Source: Erythrobacteraceae bacterium (GTDB taxonomy: Bacteria; Pseudomonadota; Alphaproteobacteria; Sphingomonadales; Sphingomonadaceae). Taken from it: 37,541 nucleotides of DNA. Position 1 is the first letter of the stretch, and every line of letters starts with the position of its first letter. The notes beneath the pieces were generated by a model. That model saw only the letters and a list, made by a program, of their open reading frames with translations. It did not search any database and had not been told where the DNA came from. The position numbers and the translations under genes were made by a program. Of the stretch, positions 4,615 to 28,178 are shown in pieces. Location of the stretch: positions 1 to 37,541 of the forward strand of contig JAIYAL010000022.1 in assembly GCA_027489095.1 (NCBI GenBank), read 5' to 3'.

Positions 4615-5298
4615 GCGCTTGCAGGACGCCGCGGATTTAAAGGGCCAGCACACGGTCCATTCTCAGCTCGTCAGCAGATGATCTGGCGAGAGTGATTTCT
4701 TGTCCAGATTCCCAAAGGCACCGACGCTTGCAATGGGACCAATATACGTGTGTGACCCAAGCTCACTTCACGAAAAATCAGAAGCGGCGTGACTGCAAAC
4801 GCGCCCATGGGGCGTCCTAGAGCCGTTCTGATCAGCGGCGAAAACGTCACCATGAGTTGACCAATGGCGCAGTTCAGCACCCCCAACATTGCCCACTCTC
4901 CGGGTAAAGAGGCGCCGTGCGTCAGCAGAATTTCGGAAAACGGGGTGACCATGAACTCGTCCCGCAGGTTGGCCCATACCGTTTCTTATTCCGTCTTTAC
5001 GGTCGCGTGCACAGCGTGAGGGAGGATCGTCATCCGCTCCATCGTCATATCTTCACAGCCTCCTCCAGGGCCACGCCGTGTGGCACCTGCTGGGTGCGGT
5101 CTCGCTTTGGCTTTCCTTCACCTATTACCGCAGCGAGCGTCGGCACGCGGCCCTTTACGCTGAGCATTTGGCAGCTTCCCACCCATCACCGGTCATGCGC
5201 AAGGCCGATGCGCGATCCAGAAAGCGGCATGGCAGCCGCTGGAGGAACCAGACGTCCATTATGGCGGACGGGAACGGCCGACGTTGGGTTGCGAACGG
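4615..5298. other. Gene-poor interval, no supportable gene
   Basis: About 680 bp between the permease stop and the tricorn-like protease stop. The first half is visibly richer in A and T than its neighbours. Short open frames on both strands (for example 4671-4952 minus and 5078-5476 plus) give translations I do not recognise, and the latter runs into the protease gene. The segment ACGTCCATTATGGCGGACG at about 5251-5269 resembles short ACGTCC/GGACGT motifs that recur between genes in many proteobacteria (a remembered resemblance, not tested). It may be decayed coding sequence. Confidence 0.5.
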
Positions 5299-8200
5299 TT
5301 ACCTCTTCGGCAGCGGAAAGACGTCGCCCCCTGGTGTGCCGAGCCCCGGCAAGGGCTGCGGCACCAGCGCGGGCACCGGTTCACGCGCGATCTTCTCCTT
5401 CAGGAGCGTCACAGCCGCGCCCAATTGCGCATCTTCGCCCTTGAAGCTCGCAGCCGGCGGATTGTCGACCGCGTAATCGGGCGCAATGCCGTAGCCCTCG
5501 ACGATCCAGCGCCCGTCGATCGCATATTGCGGGTTTTCGGCGATCCGCACCCCGCCATTGTCGGCAAGGCGGTTGCGATCCGAAAGCCAGATGCCTGCTC
5601 CTGCCGTGCGCTGTCCGATCAGCGGGGCAAGCCCCAGCGCCTTGACCGCGCCCGCGAAGGTCTCGCCGTCCGAATAGGTGCGCTCGTCGATCAGCACGGC
5701 GACATGGCCGCGATAGGCGTTTTGCATGTTGGTGGTGGGAATGCCGGTGCCGTCTGGCCGCGCCCAGAATGCCCAGACACGGCGCATCAGCATGGCAACG
5801 ACGATGCTGTCGATGTTCCCGCCGTTGTTGTTGCGCACGTCAATGATCAGTCCCTGCTTGCCCAGCTGCGGAAACCAGTCGCGCGCGAAGCTGGCGACAT
5901 CGTCCGAACCCATCGAACGCAGGCTGACATAACCGATCTGTCCGCCCGATAGCTGCGCTGTGGCAGCACGCTTGACCTCGACATGATCGAGGTAGCTGGC
6001 GGTCTGGAGGCCCTGCAGTGTCATGGGTTCGACGATGGTGCTGAAAGTGCGCGTGCCGCGGGAAAGGTCGAGCCGCACCTGCTGGCCCGCCTTGCCCGCC
6101 AGCGCGAGCTGCAGGGCGGCGACCGAGGCGACCGGACGGCCATCAACGAGGCGGATCACGTCACCTTCGCGCACGTCCACACCCGGACGGCGCAACGGCG
6201 GCCTGAGGGACACAAGATCGTCCTCGGAGCGCAGGATCCGATCGATGCGCAGGCCCGACGCGACCGGAGTATAGCTCGCTCCGAGGAACGCCATCTCGGC
6301 GTTCTCGCTGTCGCCCGGCAGGTCCCCGGCGCGCACCTGGCTGTGGAGGATGCCGAGCTGAGAGGCCATCAACCCGAGAATGGTGTTGAGTTCTGCGCGG
6401 TGGCCGATCCGATCAAGCATCGGTTCGTGGGTGGCCCGCACCGCGTTCCAGTCGACCCCGCGGAGGGCCGGATCATAGGCGAAGTCGCGGTGCATCCGCC
6501 AGGCATCGACGAACATCTGCCGCCATTCGGCCTTGGGATCGACCATCAGCCGCCAGTCATCGAGCCGGACCAGATGCGGCGGGAGCTTATCGGGCATCTT
6601 GGCCTCTGCGGGAACCAGTGCCAGCATCGGCTTGGCCGGAGAACCGGAGGCTACAAGCGCGGTCTTGCCGTTGGCGGCGAGCGCGAAGTCGAGCGCGCCC
6701 TTGGCGAAGACCTCCTCCTTGGCATCGCTCTTGTCGATGGCGATCGCGATCACGTCCTCGTCGCGGCGAGTGTAGAGGAACTTCTCGTTGGCGAAGAGCT
6801 GACCGCCGACTCCGGGTTTGGCGGGAACCTTGTAGAGGCGCTCGGCAAGTCCGGCGAGAACCATGCTGGCGGGCTTGTCGGCAGTCTTTGCCTTCTCGTC
6901 CTTGTCCTTGTCCTTGCCTTTTTCGCCTTCCGCAGCGTCAGCCTCGGCCTCGCGCTTTTCGCGATCCGCGTCGCTCATCGTGAGCTCGTTGTCCTCGCGG
7001 AACCGGAACTTCGCCTTGGGGTCGAGCTGGAGCGCGTAGATCTCGCCGCGGTCGGGGAAGGCCACGCCCATGTTGCGGTCGCCCCATGGGTCGCCCGGCG
7101 TGGGATCGAAGTTGCGGTCTGACAGGAAATACAGCCACGCCCCGTCATGCGCGAAGGCGGGGGCATAGTCGTTGTACTTGCCCGAGGTCGCCTTGACCCG
7201 CTCGCCGGTCGCGAGGTTCTGGACGTAGAGGTCCGAGGTGTTGCCGCCGTTGGCCGGGGATGTCTCTGCGTAAGCGATCATTTTGCCATCGGGCGAGAAG
7301 GCAAGGTCGCGGAACGACGCATCGTCGCCGGTGACGTTCTTGGCCAGCAGGGTGACGCGCCCGGTCGCGACATCAACCTTCTGGAGCCGCGCCTCCTTGT
7401 CCCAGACCACCAGCGTCTTGCCGTCGGGCGCTACTGCGAAGGACCAGATATGCGCGTCATAGCCCCTCGTGACGGCCATCGGCGCGCCCGTCCCGTCGGC
7501 TGCCATGGCGAAGATATCACCGCGATCCCCCTGATCGAGGATCATGAAGGCCTTGCCGTCCTTCGGTCCCAGCACCGCCTGCCGGGCGCGTGCCGCCATC
7601 GGCACAGCGAAGTCGACGCGGCGCAGCTGCTTGGGCGCAGCGAGCGCAACCCGCCCACGGGCCGTGATCGCGACCGTCTCACCCGAGGGGGAGATGCGCG
7701 CAGCCTCAAGCTGCTTCAGCGGTTCACCAAGCGCGCGGACGCGGGTCTGCTCGCGGTCGGTGACAAGGTCGATAACGAGCTTGCGAACCGCGCCGGTCTC
7801 CAGCGAGACGACGTGGAGATCGGCACCGTTCTGGAGGAAGGCCGCATCGCCGTCGATGCTGGCCTGAAGCACCGGGAAGGGCAGGTCGGGCGAGACCTGC
7901 CGCACGTCGCTGCCGTCCTCGGCGACCGACCACAAGGCGTCCTTGCCGCTCTTGTCGGACAGAAACCAGATGCGTCCGCCAGAGGCCATCGGATGGCGGA
8001 TTGGCGCCCCGAAATCGGCGAGCAAGCGCTCGGCCTCGGCGTCCGAACCCATCGTCCAGCGCCACAATTGGTCCATCCCGCCTCCACGATAGAGCACGGC
8101 ATTGTCGCGGGCGCGGGCATAAAGGCCGCGACGGCTGAAATACATCATGCGCCCGTCACTGCCAAAGGTCGCATCGGTGGCGCGCCACAGCGGGATCGGC

Positions 8201-8634
8201 GTCGCCTCGCCGCCTTCCGGCGGGACTGTATAGAGAATCTCGCCCTGTCCGCCGCCGGTAAGGCGCGAAGCGAAAATCACACGGCCATCGGGCGTCCAGC
8301 CGATGGTCTGCACGAAGCCGCCCTCGAAGGTCAGGCGCCGTGGGGTGCCGCCCGCGACGGGCATGACATAGACATCGCGTTCGCTGTCATAGCTGGCGCT
8401 GAAGGCGACCATCGTGCCGTCGGGCGAGATATGGGCTTCGCTCTCTTCGGCCGGGTGGTTGGTCAGGCGCACAGCCGTTCCGCCGTCGCGTCCGGTGCGC
8501 CACAGGTCGCCCTCGCTGGCGAAGACCAGCACGCCCCCGCGGGCCGCCGGGAATTGGTAGAAACCTTCTTCGGCTGCCGCAGGCATCACAGCCAAAGCGC
8601 ACACGCCCGCGATCAACGCCCCGAATAGTCTCAT
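5299..8634 (-). CDS. Secreted tricorn-like S41 peptidase with beta-propeller and PDZ domains
   Basis: This 1111-residue protein has a signal peptide (MRLFGALIAGVCALAVMPAAAEE) and so is periplasmic. Residues about 25-560 carry WD40/TolB-like repeats (FSPDGKMIAYAE and similar). A charged linker rich in K, D and E follows at about 555-590, then the tricorn C1 region, a PDZ domain (VREGDVIRLVDGRPV) and the S41 core. Catalytic candidates by motif are H764 (LHSQV), nucleophile S988 with D989 (TYSDGE) and E1046 (IVEGYG), matching tricorn H746, S965, D966 and E1023. The residue before H764 is Leu where archaeal tricorn has Ser745. AGGGGA precedes the start. Tricorn-type proteases degrade peptides; the bacterial substrate is unknown. 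Confidence 0.88.
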   Translation of the reverse strand: MRLFGALIAGVCALAVMPAAAEEGFYQFPAARGGVLVFASEGDLWRTGRDGGTAVRLTNHPAEESEAHISPDGTMVAFSASYDSERDVYVMPVAGGTPRRLTFEGGFVQTIGWTPDGRVIFASRLTGGGQGEILYTVPPEGGEATPIPLWRATDATFGSDGRMMYFSRRGLYARARDNAVLYRGGGMDQLWRWTMGSDAEAERLLADFGAPIRHPMASGGRIWFLSDKSGKDALWSVAEDGSDVRQVSPDLPFPVLQASIDGDAAFLQNGADLHVVSLETGAVRKLVIDLVTDREQTRVRALGEPLKQLEAARISPSGETVAITARGRVALAAPKQLRRVDFAVPMAARARQAVLGPKDGKAFMILDQGDRGDIFAMAADGTGAPMAVTRGYDAHIWSFAVAPDGKTLVVWDKEARLQKVDVATGRVTLLAKNVTGDDASFRDLAFSPDGKMIAYAETSPANGGNTSDLYVQNLATGERVKATSGKYNDYAPAFAHDGAWLYFLSDRNFDPTPGDPWGDRNMGVAFPDRGEIYALQLDPKAKFRFREDNELTMSDADREKREAEADAAEGEKGKDKDKDEKAKTADKPASMVLAGLAERLYKVPAKPGVGGQLFANEKFLYTRRDEDVIAIAIDKSDAKEEVFAKGALDFALAANGKTALVASGSPAKPMLALVPAEAKMPDKLPPHLVRLDDWRLMVDPKAEWRQMFVDAWRMHRDFAYDPALRGVDWNAVRATHEPMLDRIGHRAELNTILGLMASQLGILHSQVRAGDLPGDSENAEMAFLGASYTPVASGLRIDRILRSEDDLVSLRPPLRRPGVDVREGDVIRLVDGRPVASVAALQLALAGKAGQQVRLDLSRGTRTFSTIVEPMTLQGLQTASYLDHVEVKRAATAQLSGGQIGYVSLRSMGSDDVASFARDWFPQLGKQGLIIDVRNNNGGNIDSIVVAMLMRRVWAFWARPDGTGIPTTNMQNAYRGHVAVLIDERTYSDGETFAGAVKALGLAPLIGQRTAGAGIWLSDRNRLADNGGVRIAENPQYAIDGRWIVEGYGIAPDYAVDNPPAASFKGEDAQLGAAVTLLKEKIAREPVPALVPQPLPGLGTPGGDVFPLPKR

Positions 8635-8991
8635 GGTGTCTTTCCCCTGCTGTCCCGATTTTGTCCCGGTGCTGATTACGCCGTGTGCCAGCCTTGGCGC
8701 TGCGGCGCTAGGTGGCCCATGTTCGGCCGGAGGCGTGGTTCATCCGGTTTTCTGCGAAGGTTCAATCCGACGCGATGATCGGCAACGGGCGGCCTTGCGC
8801 GTGAAGCGTTGATGTCAGCGGCCAAACTGCGCGTCCCGGTGCAGTCCCGAAAAGCAGAGCGGCGGCTTGCAAAGTGCGTCTTCCCGAAAGCTACCAAAAC
8901 TGGGCCAAACAGCTATGCTTGCTCAATCTTGGCCTTTAGGCGTGCTTCGGCACCGGCAGTGTGCCGGAGGATTGCGAAGAGGTGCGGTCAG
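8635..8991. other. Intergenic region between divergent genes with a short direct repeat
   Basis: This 357-bp region separates the start of the protease (minus) from the RNase H-like gene (plus). TGTCCCG occurs at 8651-8657 and again at 8662-8668, an 11-bp period of about one helical turn, 17 bp before the protease start codon; a regulator site is possible. No RNA gene or terminator is seen. In-frame sequence upstream of 8992 continues open from about 8809 but shows no recognisable protein. Confidence 0.4.
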
Positions 8992-9384
8992 GTGTCTCAC
9001 CGGCGACGGCTTAAAATCTACTTTGACGGCGGCTGCCGACCCAATCCCGGTGCCCTGGAGGCGGCCGTGGTAGCGCGCGGCGCCACCTACTTCTTCGACG
9101 ACTTGGGATACGGCACGAGCAGCGACGCCGAATGGCTCGCCCTCCGGCTAGCTTTGCAACTCGCGCAATCCCTGGGCGAGTCTGATTTTGATCTGGTTGG
9201 CGATTCGTTGGAAGTCATCCGGCAGGCGAGTGGGTCATTCCGTTGTGGTTCGATCGCAGCCGCCGATCACCTCGCCAAATACGAGGAATGCGCGGCTTCA
9301 GGGCGACCTAGACGTCTCATATGGACGCCTCGACAGCAAAACCTGGCAGGTATTGCCCTGGCTGGACGCGTTACCCGTCAATGA
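8992..9384 (+). CDS. RNase H-like domain protein, last catalytic Asp replaced
   Basis: I chose GTG 8992, with GAAGAGG nine bases upstream, because the RNase H fold begins immediately after it; this gives 130 residues. Family motifs: D12 in KIYFDGGCRPNPG, E47 in SSDAEWLAL and D71 in DLVGDSLEVI, matching E. coli RNase HI D10, E48 and D70. The final motif usually reads NxxADxLA. Here it is NLAGIALA, so the position of D134 is Ile121. The enzyme may be weak, altered or inactive on RNA:DNA hybrids. It stands alone on the plus strand between two minus-strand genes. An upstream ATG at 8812 would add about 60 residues that look non-homologous. Confidence 0.72.
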   Translation: MSHRRRLKIYFDGGCRPNPGALEAAVVARGATYFFDDLGYGTSSDAEWLALRLALQLAQSLGESDFDLVGDSLEVIRQASGSFRCGSIAAADHLAKYEECAASGRPRRLIWTPRQQNLAGIALAGRVTRQ

Positions 9385-9552
9385 GCCATCCGGGTTGGCT
9401 GGAGTGACTGTCCCCTTATGGTCGGCTCCCCACACTGGGCTGCTCGGGCCAAGAACGGCGTCTATGCGATGCTTGCTTCCCAAAATCCGACATTCGGGAA
9501 ACCACCCTCAGCTGACGAACACCCATGACACTGACACCACCGCCAAGCATTC

Positions 9553-11805
9553 CTATCGCTGCTTTTGGTTCGCAGAGGACAGCGCCGGGGCGCTCGCAAA
9601 GCTGAGGCGGCCGCCCTGCACGAGGTCTTGATGCTTCACCCGCGTCATCAGCTGCCCGGATCGGAGCGTGGCATAGGGGGAATAGCTCTCCGCCGGCTCC
9701 GCCAGCGGCGAATTGATCTTCAGTTTTGCTCCCTTGGCAAGCGTCACGGTCGCCTTGTTCACCAGCGGCCGGCCCAGCACATATTCGCCGCTCGCAGGCA
9801 CGACCGGATAGAGCCCGAGCGTTGCGAACACGTACCACGCGCTCATCTGGCCTGCGTCCTCGTTGCCGATCAACCCGCCCGGCTTATCGGCGTAGAAATC
9901 CTGCGCGATCCGGCGCACGAGTGCCTGCCCTGTTTGGGGCGTGTCAGTCCAGGCGTAGAGCCAGGCGATATGGTGGCTCGGCTCGTTGCCGTGGGCATAT
10001 TGCCCGACCATCGCTTCCTGCCCGAGATAGGCCCACCCTTCGAGCGGCTTCAAATCGAAGAAGAAGGTGTCGAGTTTGGCCCGGAAGGCGTCTTTGCCGC
10101 CCATGGCCTCCACCAGTCCATCGGGATCGAACAAGCCCGGCGTCCAGCTGTATTGCCATGCGTTCGCCTCGGTATAGTCACCCGGATTGTTGAGCGGGGA
10201 AGTGGGCATCAGCGGATCGAACGGGGTGCGCCAGGCACCCTTGCTGTCCCGCCCGCGCGACAGCCGGGTTTCAGGATCGAGCAGGTTGCGCCAATTTCCG
10301 GCGCGGCGCGAGAACTTCCCGGCCAGCGCGTCCTTGCCCAGCATCGCTGCCATGCGCGCCGTGGCATCATCGCCGATCCCGGTTTCCAGCGTGCGCGAGA
10401 CGGTCTCACCCCCCGCAAGATCGAACGGGTAGTACCCGTATTGTTCGTAGAGCGACCAGGTCGACAACCCGCTTTCAACCGATGAGACGATCTTGCTGTC
10501 CTCACTCGAGGTCTTCACCATCAGATCGAGCGCGCGCTTGCCGTCAAACCCGCGGAACCCCTTGGCCCAGGCCTCGGCAATGACGGGCAAGGCGGGCTCA
10601 CCGATCATGGTGCCGGTTTCGCCGCCCCAGATCGCCCACATCGGCAAACGGCCCGCAGCATCGCCGTGATCGAGCATCGTCTGGACAAAATCGTCGACCC
10701 GTTCAGGCACGATCAGGGTGTAAAGCGGGTGGGCCGCGCGGAAAGTGTCCCACAGCGACAGGGTGGAATAGCGGATCCCGCGATCGGCCTTGCGAACCTC
10801 GCCATCCGGGCCGCGCCAGCGTCCGTCCGCATCGCTGATCCGGCTGGGGTGCAGCAGCGCGTGATAGAGGGCGGTGTAGAACACCCGCTTCTGGGTCTTG
10901 GGAGCCTCGATCGTGATGCGTGACAGCAGGCTTTCCCACTGCGCTTCGGTTGCTTTCGCCACAGCGTCGAAATCCCACCCCGGCGTGGTTTCGCGATTGG
11001 CCCGCGCGCCCTTCACATCGGCGGTGGAAAGCCCCGCCTTCATCTGGAGCACCGCGCCGTCCGCAAGGTCGAAGGCGAGCAGATAACGCTGTGCCGCGTC
11101 ACCTGCGCGCCGGGGAAGTTCGACACTGTCAGCGATGGGGTGATCGAAGGCGAGCGAGAAGGCGACGGTGCGCGTCGTCCAGTTGCTGCGCCGCTGCCAC
11201 CCTTCGACCCCGTTTGGCGTAACCTGCGCATGGGATTCGAGCACCGGCTGGCGATCCACCCGGAAGGTCAGGCCATGCTGCAGGTCGACCAGCACCCACA
11301 CCCGCCCGCCTCCCCCGCCGAAGCTGTAGCGGTGGAACGCGGTCATCTCGCTGGCGGTGAGTTCGACCCGCACGTCATTCTCGGCGAGGGTCACAGCATA
11401 GTATCCGGGCCGGGCGATCTCGCTCGCCTTGGCATAGGTGCTGCCGAAGGTGTCGCGCCGGCTCCGGCTCGGCATGACCAGCACGTCGCCCAGTTCGGGG
11501 ATGCCAGTGCCGCTGGCGCGGCTCTGCGAGAAGCCGAGAATGACCGGCGCCTGGTATTGGTAGCCAGAGGTATATTCCCACCCGGTCGCGCCATTATCGG
11601 GGCCGGGCTGCACCATGCCAAAGGGGGCGGCGGGGCCGGGGAAGGTGTGGCCGGTGCCGTCGGTGCCGATGAAGGGGTCGACATATTGGGTGAGCGGTTC
11701 GGCTTCTTGCGCGAAAGCTCCCGAAGTCATCCAAGCGCAGAGCAGGGTGACGACGATGGCCGCATATCGCACCAGCTTTTGCATGGCGGTGTGTGCTGTC
11801 TTCAT
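9553..11805 (-). CDS. GH92 family alpha-mannosidase, secreted
   Basis: This 750-residue protein has a signal peptide ending near SGAFAQE. GH92 hallmarks are VDPFIGTDGTGHTFPGP near the N-terminus, PFGMVQPGPDNG, E608 in HGNEPSHHIAW and GNEDAGQMSAW (E649, D650). GH92 enzymes are calcium-dependent exo-mannosidases, mostly alpha-1,2. The general acid Glu and base Asp map to these last two motifs from memory of characterised Bacteroides members; the first acidic residue of the base motif is Glu here where those have Asp. The start overlaps the stop of the isomerase-like gene by four bases (ATGA), with AAGGA about 11 bases upstream. It probably trims mannosides in the periplasm; linkage is unknown. 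Confidence 0.9.
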   Translation of the reverse strand: MKTAHTAMQKLVRYAAIVVTLLCAWMTSGAFAQEAEPLTQYVDPFIGTDGTGHTFPGPAAPFGMVQPGPDNGATGWEYTSGYQYQAPVILGFSQSRASGTGIPELGDVLVMPSRSRRDTFGSTYAKASEIARPGYYAVTLAENDVRVELTASEMTAFHRYSFGGGGGRVWVLVDLQHGLTFRVDRQPVLESHAQVTPNGVEGWQRRSNWTTRTVAFSLAFDHPIADSVELPRRAGDAAQRYLLAFDLADGAVLQMKAGLSTADVKGARANRETTPGWDFDAVAKATEAQWESLLSRITIEAPKTQKRVFYTALYHALLHPSRISDADGRWRGPDGEVRKADRGIRYSTLSLWDTFRAAHPLYTLIVPERVDDFVQTMLDHGDAAGRLPMWAIWGGETGTMIGEPALPVIAEAWAKGFRGFDGKRALDLMVKTSSEDSKIVSSVESGLSTWSLYEQYGYYPFDLAGGETVSRTLETGIGDDATARMAAMLGKDALAGKFSRRAGNWRNLLDPETRLSRGRDSKGAWRTPFDPLMPTSPLNNPGDYTEANAWQYSWTPGLFDPDGLVEAMGGKDAFRAKLDTFFFDLKPLEGWAYLGQEAMVGQYAHGNEPSHHIAWLYAWTDTPQTGQALVRRIAQDFYADKPGGLIGNEDAGQMSAWYVFATLGLYPVVPASGEYVLGRPLVNKATVTLAKGAKLKINSPLAEPAESYSPYATLRSGQLMTRVKHQDLVQGGRLSFASAPALSSANQKQR

Positions 11806-21183: not shown

Positions 21184-21741
21184 ATGATGAAACTGATCCA
21201 GCTAACCCTTGCTGCGGGCGCATTGTCTGCATCGGGCGCAGCTATGGCTCAGTCGACGACCTACGCCGTCAACGCGCAGGTTCAGCAGGTGTGCGGCGCC
21301 TACAATGCCGAGGGCCAGACAGTGGCTGTCGATTTCGGTGCGCTGGCAAACACGCTGCCCGCTCAGTTCGTCCAGCGTGCGGCCGGTGATATCACCTATC
21401 GCTGCAACGTGCTGGCCGGCTTCACCCGCACCGTCACCTCGCAGAACAACGGCTTTCTGACGCTTGGGGGCCAAGCCACCACCAACAACGCGCGCCGTAT
21501 CCGGTTCACGATGCAGCAATCGGGGGCGGACGGGTTCACCTATCGCCAGCTGACCACGCCGCGCGTGACCACGCACCGCGACACGGCAACCAACCGCCGC
21601 TTTCTTAACGGCCAGACCGCCAACTTGTTCTTCCGCGCCTATGGCGTCCGCGGCCCAGCCACGAGCGTCGGGCCGGTCGGCACCACAGTGTTTGCGGGCC
21701 AATACCGTGACACCGTCACCCTGACCATCACGGCCAACTGA
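21184..21741 (+). CDS. Spore coat U/Csu-type pilin subunit 1
   Basis: This 185-residue secreted protein has a signal peptide ending near AMAQ and a spore coat protein U (SCPU) domain. Marks shared with the next two genes are QVxxVCGxYN near the mature N-terminus, a second Cys in TYRCN, FTRTVTSQNNGFLTLGG, and the C-terminal strand YRDTVTLTITAN. The paired Cys and final beta strand fit donor-strand-exchange pilins of archaic chaperone-usher (Csu) systems. It is the most divergent of the three copies, being longer in the segment around RLTTPRVTTHRDT. GAAGGGG precedes the start; ATG 21187 is an equal alternative. Confidence 0.87.
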   Translation: MMKLIQLTLAAGALSASGAAMAQSTTYAVNAQVQQVCGAYNAEGQTVAVDFGALANTLPAQFVQRAAGDITYRCNVLAGFTRTVTSQNNGFLTLGGQATTNNARRIRFTMQQSGADGFTYRQLTTPRVTTHRDTATNRRFLNGQTANLFFRAYGVRGPATSVGPVGTTVFAGQYRDTVTLTITAN

Positions 21742-21763
21742 TATGCGAACGAAGGACCAGACC

Positions 21764-22315
21764 TTGCGAACGTCGCTTATCCTTGCCGCCAGCATCGCCG
21801 CGCTCGCCGCGGCGCCGCTCGGTGCGCAGAACCTCACCTATGACATGAACGCGCAGGTCGCCCCGGTGTGCGGCGTCTACAGTTCGACCGGAACGGTCAT
21901 CGATGTCGATTTCGGCTCGCTCGCCACTGTCGCCACCGATGCGACCGTCAACGCTCCGGCGGGCAGCGCCACCTATCGCTGCAATTCGATCAACGGCTTC
22001 AGGCGCACCATCGCTTCGCAGAACGGCGGCTGGATGACGCTCAGCGGCAATCCCACCACCGATGATAGCCGCCGCATCCGTTACACGATGGCGCATGGCG
22101 GCGGCAGCGGGCTCAGCTTCAGCGCGCGCAGTCTCGTGGTAGCCATCAGAAGTAGCTTTCCCGGCAATGCAACCTGGCTCGCAGGCCAGACGGGAAGCGT
22201 ATCATTTCAGGCTTTCGGGGTGCGCGGTGCCCCGGCCGCCAACGGCGTGCCCGGCACGACAGTCCTTGCCGGAAACTACCGCGACACGGTGACGATCACG
22301 CTCACCTCCAACTGA
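21764..22315 (+). CDS. Spore coat U/Csu-type pilin subunit 2, TTG start
   Basis: I place the start at TTG 21764: GAAGGACC lies just upstream, the signal peptide then begins MRTSLILAASIAALAAAP, and the protein is 183 residues, exactly the length of subunit 3. ATG 21743 is in frame but has no ribosome-binding site and would add seven residues. The SCPU domain shows VAPVCGVYSSTG, TYRCNSINGF and YRDTVTITLTSN. It is very similar to its two neighbours, so this is a tandem duplication. The product is probably a shaft subunit secreted to the periplasm. Confidence 0.86.
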   Translation: MRTSLILAASIAALAAAPLGAQNLTYDMNAQVAPVCGVYSSTGTVIDVDFGSLATVATDATVNAPAGSATYRCNSINGFRRTIASQNGGWMTLSGNPTTDDSRRIRYTMAHGGGSGLSFSARSLVVAIRSSFPGNATWLAGQTGSVSFQAFGVRGAPAANGVPGTTVLAGNYRDTVTITLTSN

Positions 22316-22370: not shown

Positions 22371-22922
22371 ATGAAGAAGATTGCCCTTATCGCCGCCGGT
22401 TTCGCCGCTTTTGCCGCTGTGCCGGCTTCGGCCCAGAGCCTGACCTACAACCTCAACGCCCAGGTCGCGCCGACGTGCGGCGTGTACAACTCGGGCGGCG
22501 CGACCGTCGCGGTTGACTTCGGCCAGCTCGCCTCCGTCGCGACCAGCAGCACCGTCGATGTCGCCGCAGGCGAGGCGACCTATCGCTGCAACAGCGTCAA
22601 CGGCTTCACCCGCACGATCACCTCGCAGAACAACGGCTTCCTGACCCTCGGCGGCACCACCACCACCGACAACGCGCGCCGCATCCGCTTCAACATGGCG
22701 CATACCGGCAACGCGGGCCTGTCGTTCTCGGCCCAGCAGCTGACCGCGCCGGTCAGCGCCTCCTTCGGCGGCAGCACTGCGTTCCTCGCGGGTGAAACCG
22801 GCACTGTCAGCTTCCAGGCCTTCGGTGTGCAGGGCGCCGCTGGCGGCAATGGTGCGCCGGGCACCACCGTCTATGCGGGCAACTACCGCGACACCGTGAC
22901 CATCACGGTGACCGCGATCTGA
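22371..22922 (+). CDS. Spore coat U/Csu-type pilin subunit 3 (likely major pilin)
   Basis: This 183-residue protein has signal peptide MKKIALIAAGFAAFAAVPASA and an SCPU domain (VAPTCGVYNSGG, TYRCNSVNGF, YRDTVTITVTAI). The start has AGAGGACC upstream and the codons look the most uniformly GC-ending of the three pilins, as in a highly expressed gene; that is an impression, not a calculation. A strong intrinsic terminator lies 34 bp after its stop, so pilin transcripts probably end here. It is the best candidate for the main shaft subunit. Confidence 0.88.
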   Translation: MKKIALIAAGFAAFAAVPASAQSLTYNLNAQVAPTCGVYNSGGATVAVDFGQLASVATSSTVDVAAGEATYRCNSVNGFTRTITSQNNGFLTLGGTTTTDNARRIRFNMAHTGNAGLSFSAQQLTAPVSASFGGSTAFLAGETGTVSFQAFGVQGAAGGNGAPGTTVYAGNYRDTVTITVTAI

Positions 22923-23068: not shown

Positions 23069-23116
23069 TCGCAACGGACATTTCTCGCAACGGACATTTC
23101 TCGTGACGGACAGGGG
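23069..23116. repeat. 16-bp direct repeats before the chaperone gene
   Basis: TCGCAACGGACATTTC occurs at 23069-23084 and again, identically, at 23085-23100. A degenerate third unit at 23101-23116 keeps TCG and ACGGACA. The array ends one base before the chaperone ATG and contains its ribosome-binding region, so copy number could change expression or be read by a regulator. Confidence 0.75.
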
Positions 23117-23117
23117 C

Positions 23118-23882
23118 ATGACGCAACCGGGCAGGGTCAATCACGGCACAAGGCTGACGCCTTGGCTGTGGCTCGCGCTTGCCATGGCAACGGCTTTCGC
23201 GCTGGCTGGCGCGGCGTGGGCTTACGAGGTCACGCCGATGCGCGTGTTCCTGCAGCCCGATCGCGGCCAGAACAGCGCCACCATCACCATCAATAACGTC
23301 CGCGACGAAGCGCTTCCGGTCGAAATCCAGGTGTTTCGCCGGATCGTGGCGGCCGATGGCGAACAGGTGTTCGAGCCAGCAGAGGAAGAGTTCATCATCT
23401 TCCCTCCGCAGGTGCAGATTGCCGCAGGCCAGTCGCAGGCTATCCGCATCCAGTATGTTGGCGATCTGGGTGAGGTGGCCGAGGCCTTCGTCGTGCAGGT
23501 CACCGAGGTTCCGGTGAACAAGCTGGAAGGCACCGGCATCCAGTTCACCTACAATTTCGGCGTTGCCGTCTATGTCCAGCCGCCGCGCGCGCGGGCGCGT
23601 CTGGCGGTGAGCGATGCCGTCGCAGCGGACGGGACCTTGCGTTTCAAGGTCGCCAACAACGGCAATGATTACGGGTTTCTGACCGGGCAGGTGCTTGAAT
23701 ATCGTGTCGGCACCGCGCGCGTTACCCTGACCCCGGACGAACTGGCAACGCTGGTGACCAACCCGATCGTGCCGCCCGGCGCAACCCGCGAATTCGCCTT
23801 TCCGCTCGCCGCGTCCCTTGGTGCAGGATCGGCTGCGGCCAGCGGGCCGGTCGAAGTGCGGCTGCTGCGCGGTGAGAGTTGA
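23118..23882 (+). CDS. Periplasmic pilus chaperone, PapD-like (archaic/Csu type)
   Basis: This 254-residue protein has a signal peptide ending near AAWAY, then an immunoglobulin-like PapD N-domain: VTPMRVFLQPD (R42 is the likely subunit-binding Arg), ATITINNVRDEALPVEIQVF, and IIFPPQVQIAAGQSQAIRIQY. The C-domain follows from about ARLAVSDAV. It would hold pilin subunits by donor-strand complementation and deliver them to the usher. GTG 23103 is an alternative start. AGGGG sits very close to ATG 23118. Position between pilins and usher matches csuC. Confidence 0.88.
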   Translation: MTQPGRVNHGTRLTPWLWLALAMATAFALAGAAWAYEVTPMRVFLQPDRGQNSATITINNVRDEALPVEIQVFRRIVAADGEQVFEPAEEEFIIFPPQVQIAAGQSQAIRIQYVGDLGEVAEAFVVQVTEVPVNKLEGTGIQFTYNFGVAVYVQPPRARARLAVSDAVAADGTLRFKVANNGNDYGFLTGQVLEYRVGTARVTLTPDELATLVTNPIVPPGATREFAFPLAASLGAGSAAASGPVEVRLLRGES

Positions 23883-23979
23883 GGCAGGCCTGCCCGCTTC
23901 GCGGTGCTGCTGCAAGGATGGGGCCTTGCCGGTGGTGATGGCTTGACAGGTGCGGGACGGGGGCCGGAAACAGGGCGGA

Positions 23980-26900
23980 ATGCGGCGCGGCCGGCTGATG
24001 CTGGCACCGCTGCTGACGGCCACCAGCGGCGTCGCATGGGCCGCGCCTGATACTCTTGCCGTGGCCGGAGACATCCCGCCGCCGCCGCCCGTTCCGCCAT
24101 CGCCCGGCATGTCGGCTGCCGCTGCCTTCGTGGCGGCGACTGCCGGCCAGCAGACGCCGCCGGTCAGCCTGTTCATCATGCGCCCCATGGTCGATGGCAA
24201 CCGGCTTGGGCAAGTCACGGCCGAGTTCAACGTCATTGAACTGCGCGGGATCGAGGCCGGATCGCTCGAACTCGCGCTTGGCAGCAGGCTGGCGGGAGCG
24301 CAGCGCGCCGAACTGAGGCGCGAGACGGGCAATTTCCTCTCCGTGGCGCGGCTTCAGGAACTCGGCATTGTCGCCACCTATGATCCGGCCAACCTCACGC
24401 TCAATCTCGCGCTGGTGCCCGAGGCCGTGGGGGCACGGGTCTTCACCTTCGCCGACGATGTCAGCCTTGGGCCAACCGGACGCGAGCGGGGCGGCTATCT
24501 CCTGTTCGGCGGCCTGACCGATCTGGCCGACAAGGCGCAGGGCGGTCTCAAACGCGACCGGCTGATCGCCTTGAGGGACGTCGAAGACCCAGCGCGGCGC
24601 GCGGCGGCAGGAGACCTGATGGCGGGGGCGCCGCTGATCGCGGGCGCGGCGGATGTGGCCGGGGTGTCGCTCAAACGGGGCGATGATGGCTTGCCAACCC
24701 CGCGCAACACCCTGCCGACCGGGCGCGGCGAGGCCGTGCGCATGCGCTCTGAACGGGCCGAGAACTACGCCGATACGGCCACCAGTGCAGCGGCCTTGGA
24801 CCTGCCTGAAACGCGGGTGGCCGCCACGTCTGTCCCGCCGATTGCCCCTGACCCGCCCGCGCCCGAAACCGCGGGGGCGGGGGCGGCGCCGGTCTCCACC
24901 CCCGCGACCACCGGCCTGCGGGCACCGCGGGTCAGCCGGATCACGATGGTTCCGTTGCTCGGCAGCAACCGGCTGCCACTGGTCACGGCCGAACTCACCC
25001 TGACAGAGCTGCGCGCGATCGAGGCCGGATCGCTCGAACTTGCGCTCGGCAGCAAGCTGGCCGCAGCGCAGCGCGCCGAACTGAAGCGCGAGATGGGCAG
25101 TTTCCTGACCGTGGCACGGCTTCAGGAACTGGGCATTACGGCCAACTTTGATCCGGCCAACCTCACCATCAAGCTCGCGCTTGCGCCCGAGGTCGTGGGG
25201 GCGCAGACCTTCAACTTCACCGGCGATGTCAACCTTGGCTCAGCCGAGCGTGTCCAGCCCGCAGACTTCGCCCTTGGCATCACCGGCAATCTCGTGGGCT
25301 CGCGCGATTTCAGCGATCCTCGGGGTGATACCCGATTGCTCTACAATTTCGCCGGCTTCCTCAATCTCGGCGGGCGCGAGCAGGGGGGCTATCTCTTGTT
25401 CGGCGGCTTGGTCAATCTTGCCGGAAAGGTGCAGCGCAGGTTCGAACGCGACCGTCTTATCGCCTTCAAGGACTTCGAAGGCCCGGCGCTGCGCTTGGCG
25501 GCAGGCGACCTGGCGGTGGGGCTTCCGCTGATCGCAGGCGAGGCGGATGTGGCCGGGATTTCGCTGGAACGGCGCTATGATGCCTTGCAGCCCCTGCGCA
25601 ACATCCGGCCGACCGGGCGCCGCCAATTCGTGCTGGAGCGCCCGGCGCGGATCGAGATCTACGCCAACGGCGCGTTGGTCCAGGCCCTCGAAGTCAATGC
25701 CGGCCCGGTCGATCTCAACCGCATCCCGGCGCTCTCGCTCTCGACCAACATCTCGATCATCGTCGAGGATGCAACCGGACGGCGCGAGATCGACAGCTTC
25801 ACCCTTGCCAACGACATCGAGTTGCTGGGCGCGGGGATCAGCGAATTCAACGTTACCGCCGGGCTGAGGCGCAAGCCTTCGTCGAGCGGCTTTGCCTATT
25901 CCGGCACCCCCTTGCTGACCGGCCAATATGCCCGCGGCTTAAGCGATGCGTTGACTGCGGGCGGGCATTTTGCGCTGACGGGCGATTACCAGAATGTCGG
26001 CGTGACCCTTGCCACTCTTGCGCCAGGCGGCGCGCTGTTTCTGGGCGGCAGCGCGAGCAATGTCGTGGCCAGCGGCGATCTTGGCTATGCGCTCAGCCTT
26101 GCCTATCGCGGCGATCCCTTGCGCCTGTCCGATCGTGACAGCCAGCTCAATTTCCGTCTCGACTATCGCTCGGACGATTACCGGCGGCTTTCACAGACAC
26201 TCACGCGCGATCCGGTGAAGCTCGACATGGCGCTCGATTACCGGGTCAGCCTGACCGACCGGGTGGCGGTCTCGCTGGGCGGCAATTACCTTGAAAGCCA
26301 CGCCCAAGGGCCCACGACCCGCGCGGTGTTTGGCGGGGTGCAGGTTGCCTTCGGACGGGTGCTGGCATCGGCGACGGCGCGCTATGCCGCGATCGACGGG
26401 CGCACCGATCGCGGCGTGCTGGCCACGCTGACGATTCCGCTCGGGCGCAATCATTTTTCGACCGCCAGCTATGACAGCGTGAGCCGTCAGGCCCGGTTCG
26501 AAGCGCGCCGGGTGCGCGACATTACCGTGCCGGAATTCGATTACGGGCTGATCGCGGAACGTTCGCCGATATTTGACCGTTTGACCGGGCAGGCGCGCTT
26601 TGCCAATTCGCGCTTCAATCTTGATGTCGAACTGGTGGGAACCCGCGGCGATGCGGCCAGCGGGATGCGCGATCAGAACATTGTCAATTTCCGCCTGCAA
26701 TCGGGCCTTGCCTTTGCCGACGGGACGCTGGGGATCGGCCGCAATCCCGGCCGCGGCTTTGTGATGGTGGATCGCCACGCCTCGCTCAAGGAGGCACGCG
26801 TCGAGGTCGAGACGAGCGGCGTCGGGCGGCGCGCCGGACAGAGCAATGGGCTGGGCCCAGCGGTCATCAGCCAGCTTTCGGGTTACCGGCCGGACAACAT

Positions 26901-27270
26901 CCGAGTGAGCGTGCTCGGCGCGCCGCCGGGCTATGATATTGGCGCGGGGGAATATCTCAGCGATCCCGGAGCCTTGAGCGGGGTGAAGCTCAGGATCGGG
27001 AGCGATGCCTATCGTTCGGCGCTCGTCACTTTCGTTATGCCGGATGGATCGCCTGTGAAGCTGGCTGACGGGGTGGTTCGCAACCTCGCCACCGGCGAGA
27101 CCAGCGGGGTCTTCACCAATTCGGCCGGACGCGCGGTGCTCTCCAAGCTGGCCGAGGGGACATACCGGGTGGAATTGGTGGGTGGGGATCTGGTGTTTGA
27201 ATTCACGGTCGACAAATCCGCGCCTGCTATCGTCCGGCTGGGCACCCAGACGATGGAGGTATCATCATGA
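23980..27270 (+). CDS. Outer-membrane usher with duplicated N-terminal region
   Basis: From ATG 23980 the protein is 1096 residues; GTG 23950 would add ten. The signal peptide ends near VAWAAP. Residues about 318 onward form an ordinary archaic usher: N-terminal domain, then LQPLRNIRPTGRRQF with EIYANG, many beta strands, and a C-terminal carboxypeptidase-like domain (SGVFTNSAGRAVL). Residues about 62-266 are a diverged copy of 318-564 lacking 42 codons, joined by a Pro/Ala-rich linker (PPIAPDPPAPETAGAG). Typical archaic ushers have about 800-850 residues, so the excess equals the extra copy. It secretes and assembles pilins at the outer membrane. The stop overlaps the tip-protein start (ATGA). 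Confidence 0.9.
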   Translation: MRRGRLMLAPLLTATSGVAWAAPDTLAVAGDIPPPPPVPPSPGMSAAAAFVAATAGQQTPPVSLFIMRPMVDGNRLGQVTAEFNVIELRGIEAGSLELALGSRLAGAQRAELRRETGNFLSVARLQELGIVATYDPANLTLNLALVPEAVGARVFTFADDVSLGPTGRERGGYLLFGGLTDLADKAQGGLKRDRLIALRDVEDPARRAAAGDLMAGAPLIAGAADVAGVSLKRGDDGLPTPRNTLPTGRGEAVRMRSERAENYADTATSAAALDLPETRVAATSVPPIAPDPPAPETAGAGAAPVSTPATTGLRAPRVSRITMVPLLGSNRLPLVTAELTLTELRAIEAGSLELALGSKLAAAQRAELKREMGSFLTVARLQELGITANFDPANLTIKLALAPEVVGAQTFNFTGDVNLGSAERVQPADFALGITGNLVGSRDFSDPRGDTRLLYNFAGFLNLGGREQGGYLLFGGLVNLAGKVQRRFERDRLIAFKDFEGPALRLAAGDLAVGLPLIAGEADVAGISLERRYDALQPLRNIRPTGRRQFVLERPARIEIYANGALVQALEVNAGPVDLNRIPALSLSTNISIIVEDATGRREIDSFTLANDIELLGAGISEFNVTAGLRRKPSSSGFAYSGTPLLTGQYARGLSDALTAGGHFALTGDYQNVGVTLATLAPGGALFLGGSASNVVASGDLGYALSLAYRGDPLRLSDRDSQLNFRLDYRSDDYRRLSQTLTRDPVKLDMALDYRVSLTDRVAVSLGGNYLESHAQGPTTRAVFGGVQVAFGRVLASATARYAAIDGRTDRGVLATLTIPLGRNHFSTASYDSVSRQARFEARRVRDITVPEFDYGLIAERSPIFDRLTGQARFANSRFNLDVELVGTRGDAASGMRDQNIVNFRLQSGLAFADGTLGIGRNPGRGFVMVDRHASLKEARVEVETSGVGRRAGQSNGLGPAVISQLSGYRPDNIRVSVLGAPPGYDIGAGEYLSDPGALSGVKLRIGSDAYRSALVTFVMPDGSPVKLADGVVRNLATGETSGVFTNSAGRAVLSKLAEGTYRVELVGGDLVFEFTVDKSAPAIVRLGTQTMEVSS
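24163..25672. repeat. Imperfect tandem duplication inside the usher gene
   Basis: Bases 24163-24778 align with 24931-25672. The offset is 768 bp for the first half and 894 bp after about 24465, meaning copy 1 has lost 126 bp (42 codons) in frame. Identity is high but not perfect in the AGSLELALGS and QRAEL segments, so the event is old. Positions 24779-24930 encode the linker. Confidence 0.88.
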
Positions 27271-28178
27271 GCGATTGTTGGATCGGCCGGCTTGTTCGCG
27301 GGGCAGCCCTGGCCCTGCTGATCTGGTCAGGCGTGCTGGGTAACGCAGCGGTGCTGGCGCAGGGCCAGGGACAAGGCGGCGGCGGTGCCTGTCCAGAGGG
27401 CTACCGCATCACAGGGCGCCAGGCGAGCGGGCAGAGCTATGATCCCAACCAAGCCAATCGCACCGTGCTCCAGATTACCCTTCAGGCCGCCGCCAGCGCG
27501 ATCCCGCAGGGGTGCACCAGTGCGCCGGTCACCATCACGCCGCAATCGGGCGCGGCCTTTGTCTTTGCAAACGGCAGCTACCAGCTGGGATTTGTCCAGC
27601 TCAATTCCAACCTTGTCTCAAAGGCCAATGTCACTGGCTTTGAACTCAGCGGCAATGCTCGCAGCCGGCTGGTGCGCGGCGAGGCGGTGACGATCGACCT
27701 GTTCGAATTGAGCGCCGGGCAGTTCCCCGCCGCGGGTGAGTATCGCGGGACGGTGCTGGTGCAGGTCGGCAATGGGCTGCCGCAAGCAGTCCTGTTTGCG
27801 ATCACGGTGCGCCCGGCGATCAAATTTCTGGCCGAACACGGCGCGATGACCAGTGACTTGAGCTTTGGCGAGGTGAGCGCGGGCTCGGTCATCCGCACCG
27901 CCGTCTATTACCAAAGCAATGCCGCCGCCAACATCACCATCCAGTCACAAAATCGCGGCCGGCTGGTGCACACTGTGCAAGGCCCACTGCGCAGCATTCC
28001 CTACAGATTGACCTATGACGGGGTGGCGGTGAACCTGTCGAGCAGCGCGCAGATCAACCGCCCGTTTCGCGGGCTCTTGGCGGTGCGCGAGGAAATGGTG
28101 TTGGAGGTCGCGCCCGGCACCGACCGGTTTGCGGGTGACTATCGTGACGTCCTGAGCTTGATCTACACCGCGTATTAG
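27267..28178 (+). CDS. Two-domain pilus tip protein (CsuE-like)
   Basis: This 303-residue protein has a signal peptide ending near VLAQG and a Gly/Gln-rich stretch. An N-terminal domain with two Cys (ACPEGY and QGCTS) is followed by a C-terminal SCPU-like domain (LTYDG, then YRDVLSLIYTAY, like the pilins' last strand). A tip adhesin made of two such domains at the end of the operon matches CsuE of archaic pili, which sits at the fibre tip and contacts surfaces. The start overlaps the usher stop. The stop overlaps that of the convergent gene on the other strand. Confidence 0.78.
   Translation: MSDCWIGRLVRGAALALLIWSGVLGNAAVLAQGQGQGGGGACPEGYRITGRQASGQSYDPNQANRTVLQITLQAAASAIPQGCTSAPVTITPQSGAAFVFANGSYQLGFVQLNSNLVSKANVTGFELSGNARSRLVRGEAVTIDLFELSAGQFPAAGEYRGTVLVQVGNGLPQAVLFAITVRPAIKFLAEHGAMTSDLSFGEVSAGSVIRTAVYYQSNAAANITIQSQNRGRLVHTVQGPLRSIPYRLTYDGVAVNLSSSAQINRPFRGLLAVREEMVLEVAPGTDRFAGDYRDVLSLIYTAY

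Follow-up and report, generated by a model that had tools for sequence, protein, structure and literature searches.

The window analysed here, a stretch of 37,541 nucleotides from an Erythrobacteraceae bacterium (contig JAIYAL010000022.1 of assembly GCA_027489095.1), contains a chaperone-usher operon whose usher carries two N-terminal domains (NTDs), NTD1 and NTD2, ahead of its barrel. The Pfam Usher family (PF00577) matches residues 566-997 of this protein with 38.4 bits against a cut-off of 27.1, and this is the only match of the family found in the source genome. An earlier note on this DNA had placed the gene at 23980..27270; the end point holds, but position 23980 is an internal ATG at codon 11 of a frame that opens at 23950. 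The parts of the usher, as delimited with a hidden Markov model (HMM) of usher NTDs and by the comparisons named in brackets, are the following:

23950..27270, + strand: usher with two NTDs, 1106 amino acids (open reading frame with a GTG start)
23950..24165, + strand: signal-peptide-like start and Pro-rich N-terminal tail, residues 1-72 (alignment of N-termini; signal peptide judged by eye)
24166..24423, + strand: core of NTD1, the extra domain, residues 73-158, 86 amino acids (usher-NTD HMM)
24424..24771, + strand: degenerate copy-1 remnant of the duplicated barrel and plug start, minus 42 codons (repeat identity)
24772..24933, + strand: Pro/Ala-rich linker ahead of NTD2 (composition)
24934..25191, + strand: core of NTD2, in the ancestral position adjoining the barrel, residues 329-414, 86 amino acids (usher-NTD HMM)
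25192..27267, + strand: barrel, plug and C-terminal region, the intact copy (692 residues in all four species with this layout)
25246-25371, + strand: the 42-codon stretch present in copy 2 and absent from copy 1

The duplicated N-terminal region proposed in the earlier note is evident from DNA repeats as well as from a self-alignment of the protein. Positions 24085-24384 match positions 24853-25152 without gaps at 74% identity and a spacing of 768 nucleotides, and positions 24477-24771 match positions 25371-25665, again ungapped, at 78% identity and a spacing of 894. These spacings differ by 126 nucleotides, and copy 1 has consequently lost 42 codons, as had been claimed; they correspond to residues 433-474 in copy 2. 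A local alignment of the first against the second part of the protein scores 608, with the best of 500 shuffles reaching 74. The duplicated unit includes the NTD, in agreement with the note, but is larger than this domain, as it extends through the initial strands of the barrel into the beginning of the plug region. Of the duplicated stretch, the NTD core alone has been kept. The Pro/Ala linker postulated between the copies is likewise present: Pro and Ala account for 43% of the final 60 residues ahead of NTD2, and the linker varies among species. When the four duplicated ushers and their single-NTD relative G425 (genomes and loci are referred to by our G and L handles) are aligned at their N-termini, the start is similar and the remainder variable.

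Both domains are recognized as usher NTDs by our HMM, which was built from 37 other usher NTDs with the present subfamily excluded (L046 contributed to the HMM but not to alignment A3). In the window usher, NTD1 (residues 80-157) scores 32.0 bits and NTD2 30.2 bits, and all four duplicated ushers gave two NTD matches. The window usher thus does not have the single NTD ahead of the barrel that characterizes ushers; with two NTD matches in its chain it is a variant usher, the remainder of which is ordinary. A profile alignment of the family's ushers with FimD, HtrE and ElfC of E. coli K-12 is collinear from inside the NTD onward (97.6%, E 2.6e-12) and ends short of the C-terminus. The PapC_N family (PF13954) was not found by Pfam in the window usher; it matched one of the 40 NTDs of the family under study (E 0.0059) and gave no match in 289 genomes of the class, E. 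coli being positive as a control. Sequence searches of the Protein Data Bank (PDB) yielded no matches up to E 1 with the whole usher and none up to E 0.01 with the usher profile.

The duplicated layout is shared by the window usher, G426, G431 and Erythrobacter sp. WG (L032, taken as G463), in which a contig scan found one locus with an usher of 1048 amino acids. Matches to the window usher were obtained in 29 of 114 genomes of the genus, four of them with the duplicated form; the genome searches score limited candidates per genome, so that all counts are lower bounds. The closest single-NTD ushers are those of G425 (847 amino acids, 73%) and of G336 (857 amino acids, 60%), which belongs to another genus. 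Screening of 48 usher frames with the NTD HMM identified at least one NTD in 47 and at least two in six: the four duplicated ushers and G498 (two each), and G407 (three). For this screen, identical proteins were kept once, the truncated versions of the window usher (L001) and the G407 usher (L038) were set aside, and second matches that scored under 0 bits, in L029 and L004, did not count; usher matches without a locus and the G297 frame (1040) lay outside it. An order-wide draw of 386 genomes contained 67 frames of at least 800 amino acids with an NTD match (counted from the listing, and not each confirmed as an usher), four of which, from G000, G426, G431 and G498, had two. Several further long candidates were discarded. 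G064 (1074) has a single real NTD match and G918 (1078) a single match; G324 (1098 from stop to stop) has one real match, its extra length looking, by eye, like an upstream gene read out of frame. G453 (1112) stands outside the HMM screen: its locus L040 has no closed frame, and by eye the usher starts after a stop and has one NTD. The G319 match is a chance match in an unrelated protein.

NTD1 is retained under purifying selection, while the tether between the two NTDs is drifting. In all four duplicated ushers both cores measure 86 amino acids and contain no insertion or deletion, whereas the stretch between them amounts to 170 residues in the window usher, 115 in G426, 147 in G431 and 112 in WG. 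Over the six species pairs, the ratio of nonsynonymous to synonymous substitution rates (dN/dS) is 0.20-0.36 for NTD1 and 0.20-0.41 for NTD2, and 0.10-0.20 for the remaining 692 codons. The corresponding ratio of uncorrected proportions (pN/pS) is 0.27-0.48 for NTD1, with upper bootstrap bounds of at most 0.74, and 0.73-0.91 for the linker; the bootstrap ranges of NTD1 and linker do not overlap in any of the six pairs. We also computed codon-model likelihoods with IQ-TREE over a grid of fixed omega values; these calculations covered both NTDs, the 190 codons immediately following NTD2, and the linker. Omega = 1 was rejected for NTD1 (twice the log-likelihood difference, 2dlnL, 101.8; best omega 0.1, the lowest value on the grid) and for NTD2 (2dlnL 79.7).

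In phylogenetic trees of the whole core, the NTD1 sequences form a clade of their own (97-100% bootstrap), apart from NTD2 and from single-NTD ushers; the duplication is therefore older than the split of the four species, and it appears to be an internal tandem event in an ancestor of at least these four. Six nucleotide sites and five residues separate NTD1 from NTD2 in all four species, the residues being L2, F3, F21, N22 and L79 in NTD1 versus R, I, L, T and I in NTD2. In a tree of 73 domains, NTD1, NTD2 and G425 form one group (99%), nested in a group with G336 (100%), and G425 is not separated from the NTD2s (nodes 65-68%). G425 either branched off before the duplication or lost the extra copy.

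The usher lies in an operon with the following further genes:

21184-21741, 21743-22315 and 22371-22922, + strand: three spore-coat-U-like (SCPU) pilus subunit genes (Pfam SCPU)
23103..23882, + strand: periplasmic PapD-type chaperone (Pfam PapD_N, 34.8 bits against a cut-off of 23)
27267..28178, + strand: likely tip subunit or adhesin, overlapping the usher stop (role inferred from position)

The order, three spore-coat-U-like subunits, chaperone, usher and a large final subunit, is the same in relatives. The subunit genes score 20.2, 20.8 and 18 bits, just under the SCPU cut-off of 22.4. A Pfam scan of the final gene product revealed no family; in each of the seven usher loci that were compared (three duplicated, two single-NTD, and those of G407 and G498), the next gene after the usher is a relative of this one. 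Within the C-terminal region of the usher, Pfam CarboxypepD_reg matches residues 1031-1075 with 21.4 bits, below its cut-off of 32.3. Each operon has a single chaperone gene, in duplicated and single-NTD forms alike, and a second operon chaperone is therefore not the reason for the extra NTD.

SCPU subunits are linked to archaic chaperone-usher pili. With the archaic, Csu-type systems, the window operon has in common one chaperone, one usher and a large subunit gene in last position, and its subunits resemble SCPU below the cut-off, a likeness drawn from subunits and gene order; it differs by the second NTD of its usher. PMC4654587 lists the Csu genes as CsuA/B, CsuA, CsuB and CsuE together with CsuC-CsuD. 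With FimD and PapC, the window usher has in common the collinear NTD and barrel with plug, seen in the profile alignment with the K-12 ushers, and an adjacent chaperone gene. Its sequence is too distant for the Pfam PapC_N family of classical ushers, and it has two NTDs, whereas the described ushers, according to PMC8410936, have one per chain. The statement of the earlier note that no usher with this arrangement has been described holds provisionally: there was none among the literature matches listed, subscription journals being mostly outside the search. In PMC5717340, which treats the diversity of fimbrial ushers, the main text does not contain the terms 'N-terminal' and 'duplicat', and the phrase matched in one other paper proved to refer to lectins.

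We consider it somewhat more probable than the contrary that this protein is the working usher of a spore-coat-U-type chaperone-usher pilus, with the second NTD as a putative tethered docking site. According to PMC3960871 and PMC8410936, chaperone-subunit complexes dock first at the NTD in FimD and PapC. Among them, the chaperone-adhesin complex is bound best by the NTD, and release of the NTD resets the usher so that the following complex can be taken up. In the scenario that we envisage, an internal tandem duplication provided the usher with a second NTD in a common ancestor; selection kept this domain and let the duplicated barrel/plug piece decay into a long tether. NTD1, at the free N-terminus and some 110-170 residues away from NTD2, could then offer chaperone-subunit complexes an additional place to dock in the periplasm. 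One complex, for example the chaperone with the tip subunit or the next in the queue, might be held there at the same time as NTD2 brings forward another for donor-strand exchange and transfer to the C-terminal region; alternatively, NTD1 could be specialized for one kind of complex. That NTD1 binds such complexes, the timing of this binding relative to NTD2, the fold of NTD1 and the flexibility of the tether are what we infer; the data themselves show two NTD copies of common ancestry, purifying selection on NTD1, fixed residues peculiar to it, and drift of the tether.

Several of our results weigh against this reading. The operon with the duplicated usher is not visibly larger than those of single-NTD relatives: subunit-like genes number 3, 2, 3 and 3 in the duplicated forms versus 4 in G425 and 1 in G336. 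Aligned with classical NTDs, the NTD profile alone gives a weak match (4%, E 0.0098), and against PDB chains it yields eight chance-level matches (E 0.3-0.6). Structure prediction returned no confident model, neither for NTD1 (four sequences; mean predicted local distance difference test score, pLDDT, 41.5) nor for the full-length usher (two sequences; mean pLDDT 29.3); these low-confidence models have weak secondary structure in the order strand-strand-helices-strand-strand in both NTDs and none between them. In three of the four species NTD2 has retained an R..RVSRI run at the beginning of its core, which NTD1 lacks. For the linker, the whole pN/pS range is under 1 in two of the six pairs, and the codon model, on a poorly alignable sequence, favours omega below 1 here as well (2dlnL 37.8); the codon-model result alone is therefore no clean contrast. 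Finally, trees from core codons 26-75 mix NTD1 and NTD2 and contain no NTD1 clade, and the synonymous distance (dS) between the copies is only 0.35 in the window usher, below all 12 between-species NTD values, and 0.39 in G426, below 11 of these 12; it is 1.25 in G431 and 0.78 in WG. The mid-core trees and low copy distances are signs of gene conversion, and our data suggest that it occurred partially in some lineages, which could lend NTD1 some of the constraint acting on NTD2.

Among the other explanations, the one that survives best grants NTD1 a function different from docking, such as pore regulation, capping of NTD2, contact with the partner protomer in a dimeric usher, or binding of another periplasmic partner. 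It agrees with a domain that is under selection and yet differs from NTD2 at five fixed residues, of which four (positions 2, 3, 21 and 22) lie towards the beginning of the core, and that is devoid of the R..RVSRI run; related domains also occur in stand-alone secreted proteins, without chaperone-usher genes near the six loci tested. The score of NTD1 is nevertheless that of an ordinary usher NTD and, in the window, does not fall behind that of NTD2, and nothing points to any particular other partner. We regard such a function as possible, but not as probable.

The earlier note had left open whether the extra copy is a second docking site or an inert relic. As an inert by-product of tandem duplication, persisting because it is harmless, copy 1 is well described in its barrel/plug part: the remnant in the window (24487-24771, 95 codons) has a pN/pS of 1.01 (0.66-1.67) relative to copy 2, it is the segment that lost the 42 codons, and it has eroded differently in each species, with further losses in the other species. 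The note was right about a kept NTD with a degenerate end, and its interpretation is supported in part. For the NTD, on the other hand, an inert relic fails, since its core is free of insertions and deletions in four species and has low pN/pS values with upper bounds below 1 in every pair; between NTD1 and NTD2 of the window, pN/pS is 0.58 (0.37-0.93). It is very unlikely that the extra copy is inert as a whole.

Persistence of NTD1 mainly through gene conversion from NTD2, and not through need, would be in keeping with the mixed mid-core trees and the small synonymous distances in the window and G426, with the DNA identity of the window cores, which rises from 65-70% in the first third to 79-91% in the remainder, and with three NTD sites that vary in concert within species. 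It conflicts with the sites and residues fixed between the copies and with the NTD1 clade of the whole-core trees. Moreover, the copies of G431 and WG are too distant for recent conversion, and NTD1 is still constrained between these two species (pN/pS 0.48; 0.29-0.74). We judge this explanation highly unlikely. An artefact of assembly or sequencing (a collapsed or chimeric repeat) might be suspected in a source genome of 223 contigs, but its probability is negligible, as three further species have the same arrangement, which in two cases sits on contigs as long as 3.5 and 3.3 Mb, and the two NTD copies differ at 30-48% of residues.

Ushers with extra NTDs seem to have arisen in this genus by a second route as well. 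The ushers of G407 (1571 amino acids; L060:3841-8556) and G498 (1079 amino acids; L062) resemble the window usher in that their barrel is preceded by several NTD-like domains (at least two); they differ in that their extra domains are akin to stand-alone proteins and not to their own NTD. These extra domains group together (96%), not with usher NTDs, and they join stand-alone secreted proteins with 91% support for the nearest five and 97% for all 21 in the tree, which argues for two routes to the multi-NTD layout. One seems to be internal duplication, as in the window usher, and the other acquisition of a related domain, followed by further duplication in G407, where two near-identical repeats of about 272 residues, each NTD-like, precede the usher's own NTD. 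The G407 and G498 ushers share a related N-terminal module (RRWW.LSEAS...), but their own NTDs lie in different parts of the tree, which suggests that this module has been swapped between ushers.

The stand-alone proteins are a family, without a family name, of secreted or membrane-anchored proteins that end in an usher-NTD-like domain (L063-L076, L078, L079-L084, L088, L090, L091, L093, L094 and L095; for L089 and L092 no NTD match was displayed, possibly through the filtering of overlapping frames, and both were left out of the tree). Their frames comprise about 220-540 residues, Pro/Ala-rich or polar ahead of the NTD-like domain, and in 12 loci (L079-L084 and the six from L088 to L095) the profile matches with E 7.5e-9 to 1.8e-13. 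Pfam found no family in two of these proteins. Chaperone-usher genes were not found beside six of the loci, and the fold therefore seems to be used outside ushers. In L079, L083 and L095, the stand-alone gene lies within about 4 kb of curlin-repeat genes, in L095 adjoining a CsgH chaperone gene; in L081, curlin-like sequence was recognized by eye. The stand-alone protein may be an unrecognised curli component. In L088, the gene for a 219-residue stand-alone protein (5238-5897) is divergent from one for a surface-type protein that is rich in repeats and has 1544 residues or more (6369-11000).

Taken further, the sphingomonad usher NTD might be a movable recruitment module that has been doubled, captured from stand-alone proteins, and used beside curli genes and a large, repeat-rich surface protein, with the tandem forms holding two complexes and so bypassing the one-at-a-time reset; we put this forward as a speculation that is rather doubtful as a whole. 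The second origin of extra NTDs within one genus suggests in its own right that the domain works as a module, and it draws attention to the unnamed secreted proteins with an usher-NTD-like domain, some of them beside curli genes. Research on pilus assembly turns centrally on how a single NTD recruits, positions and hands over its complexes, and on how it is reset. In a natural usher whose two NTDs differ in sequence, are both under selection and are joined by a drifting tether, recruitment would become separable from handover.

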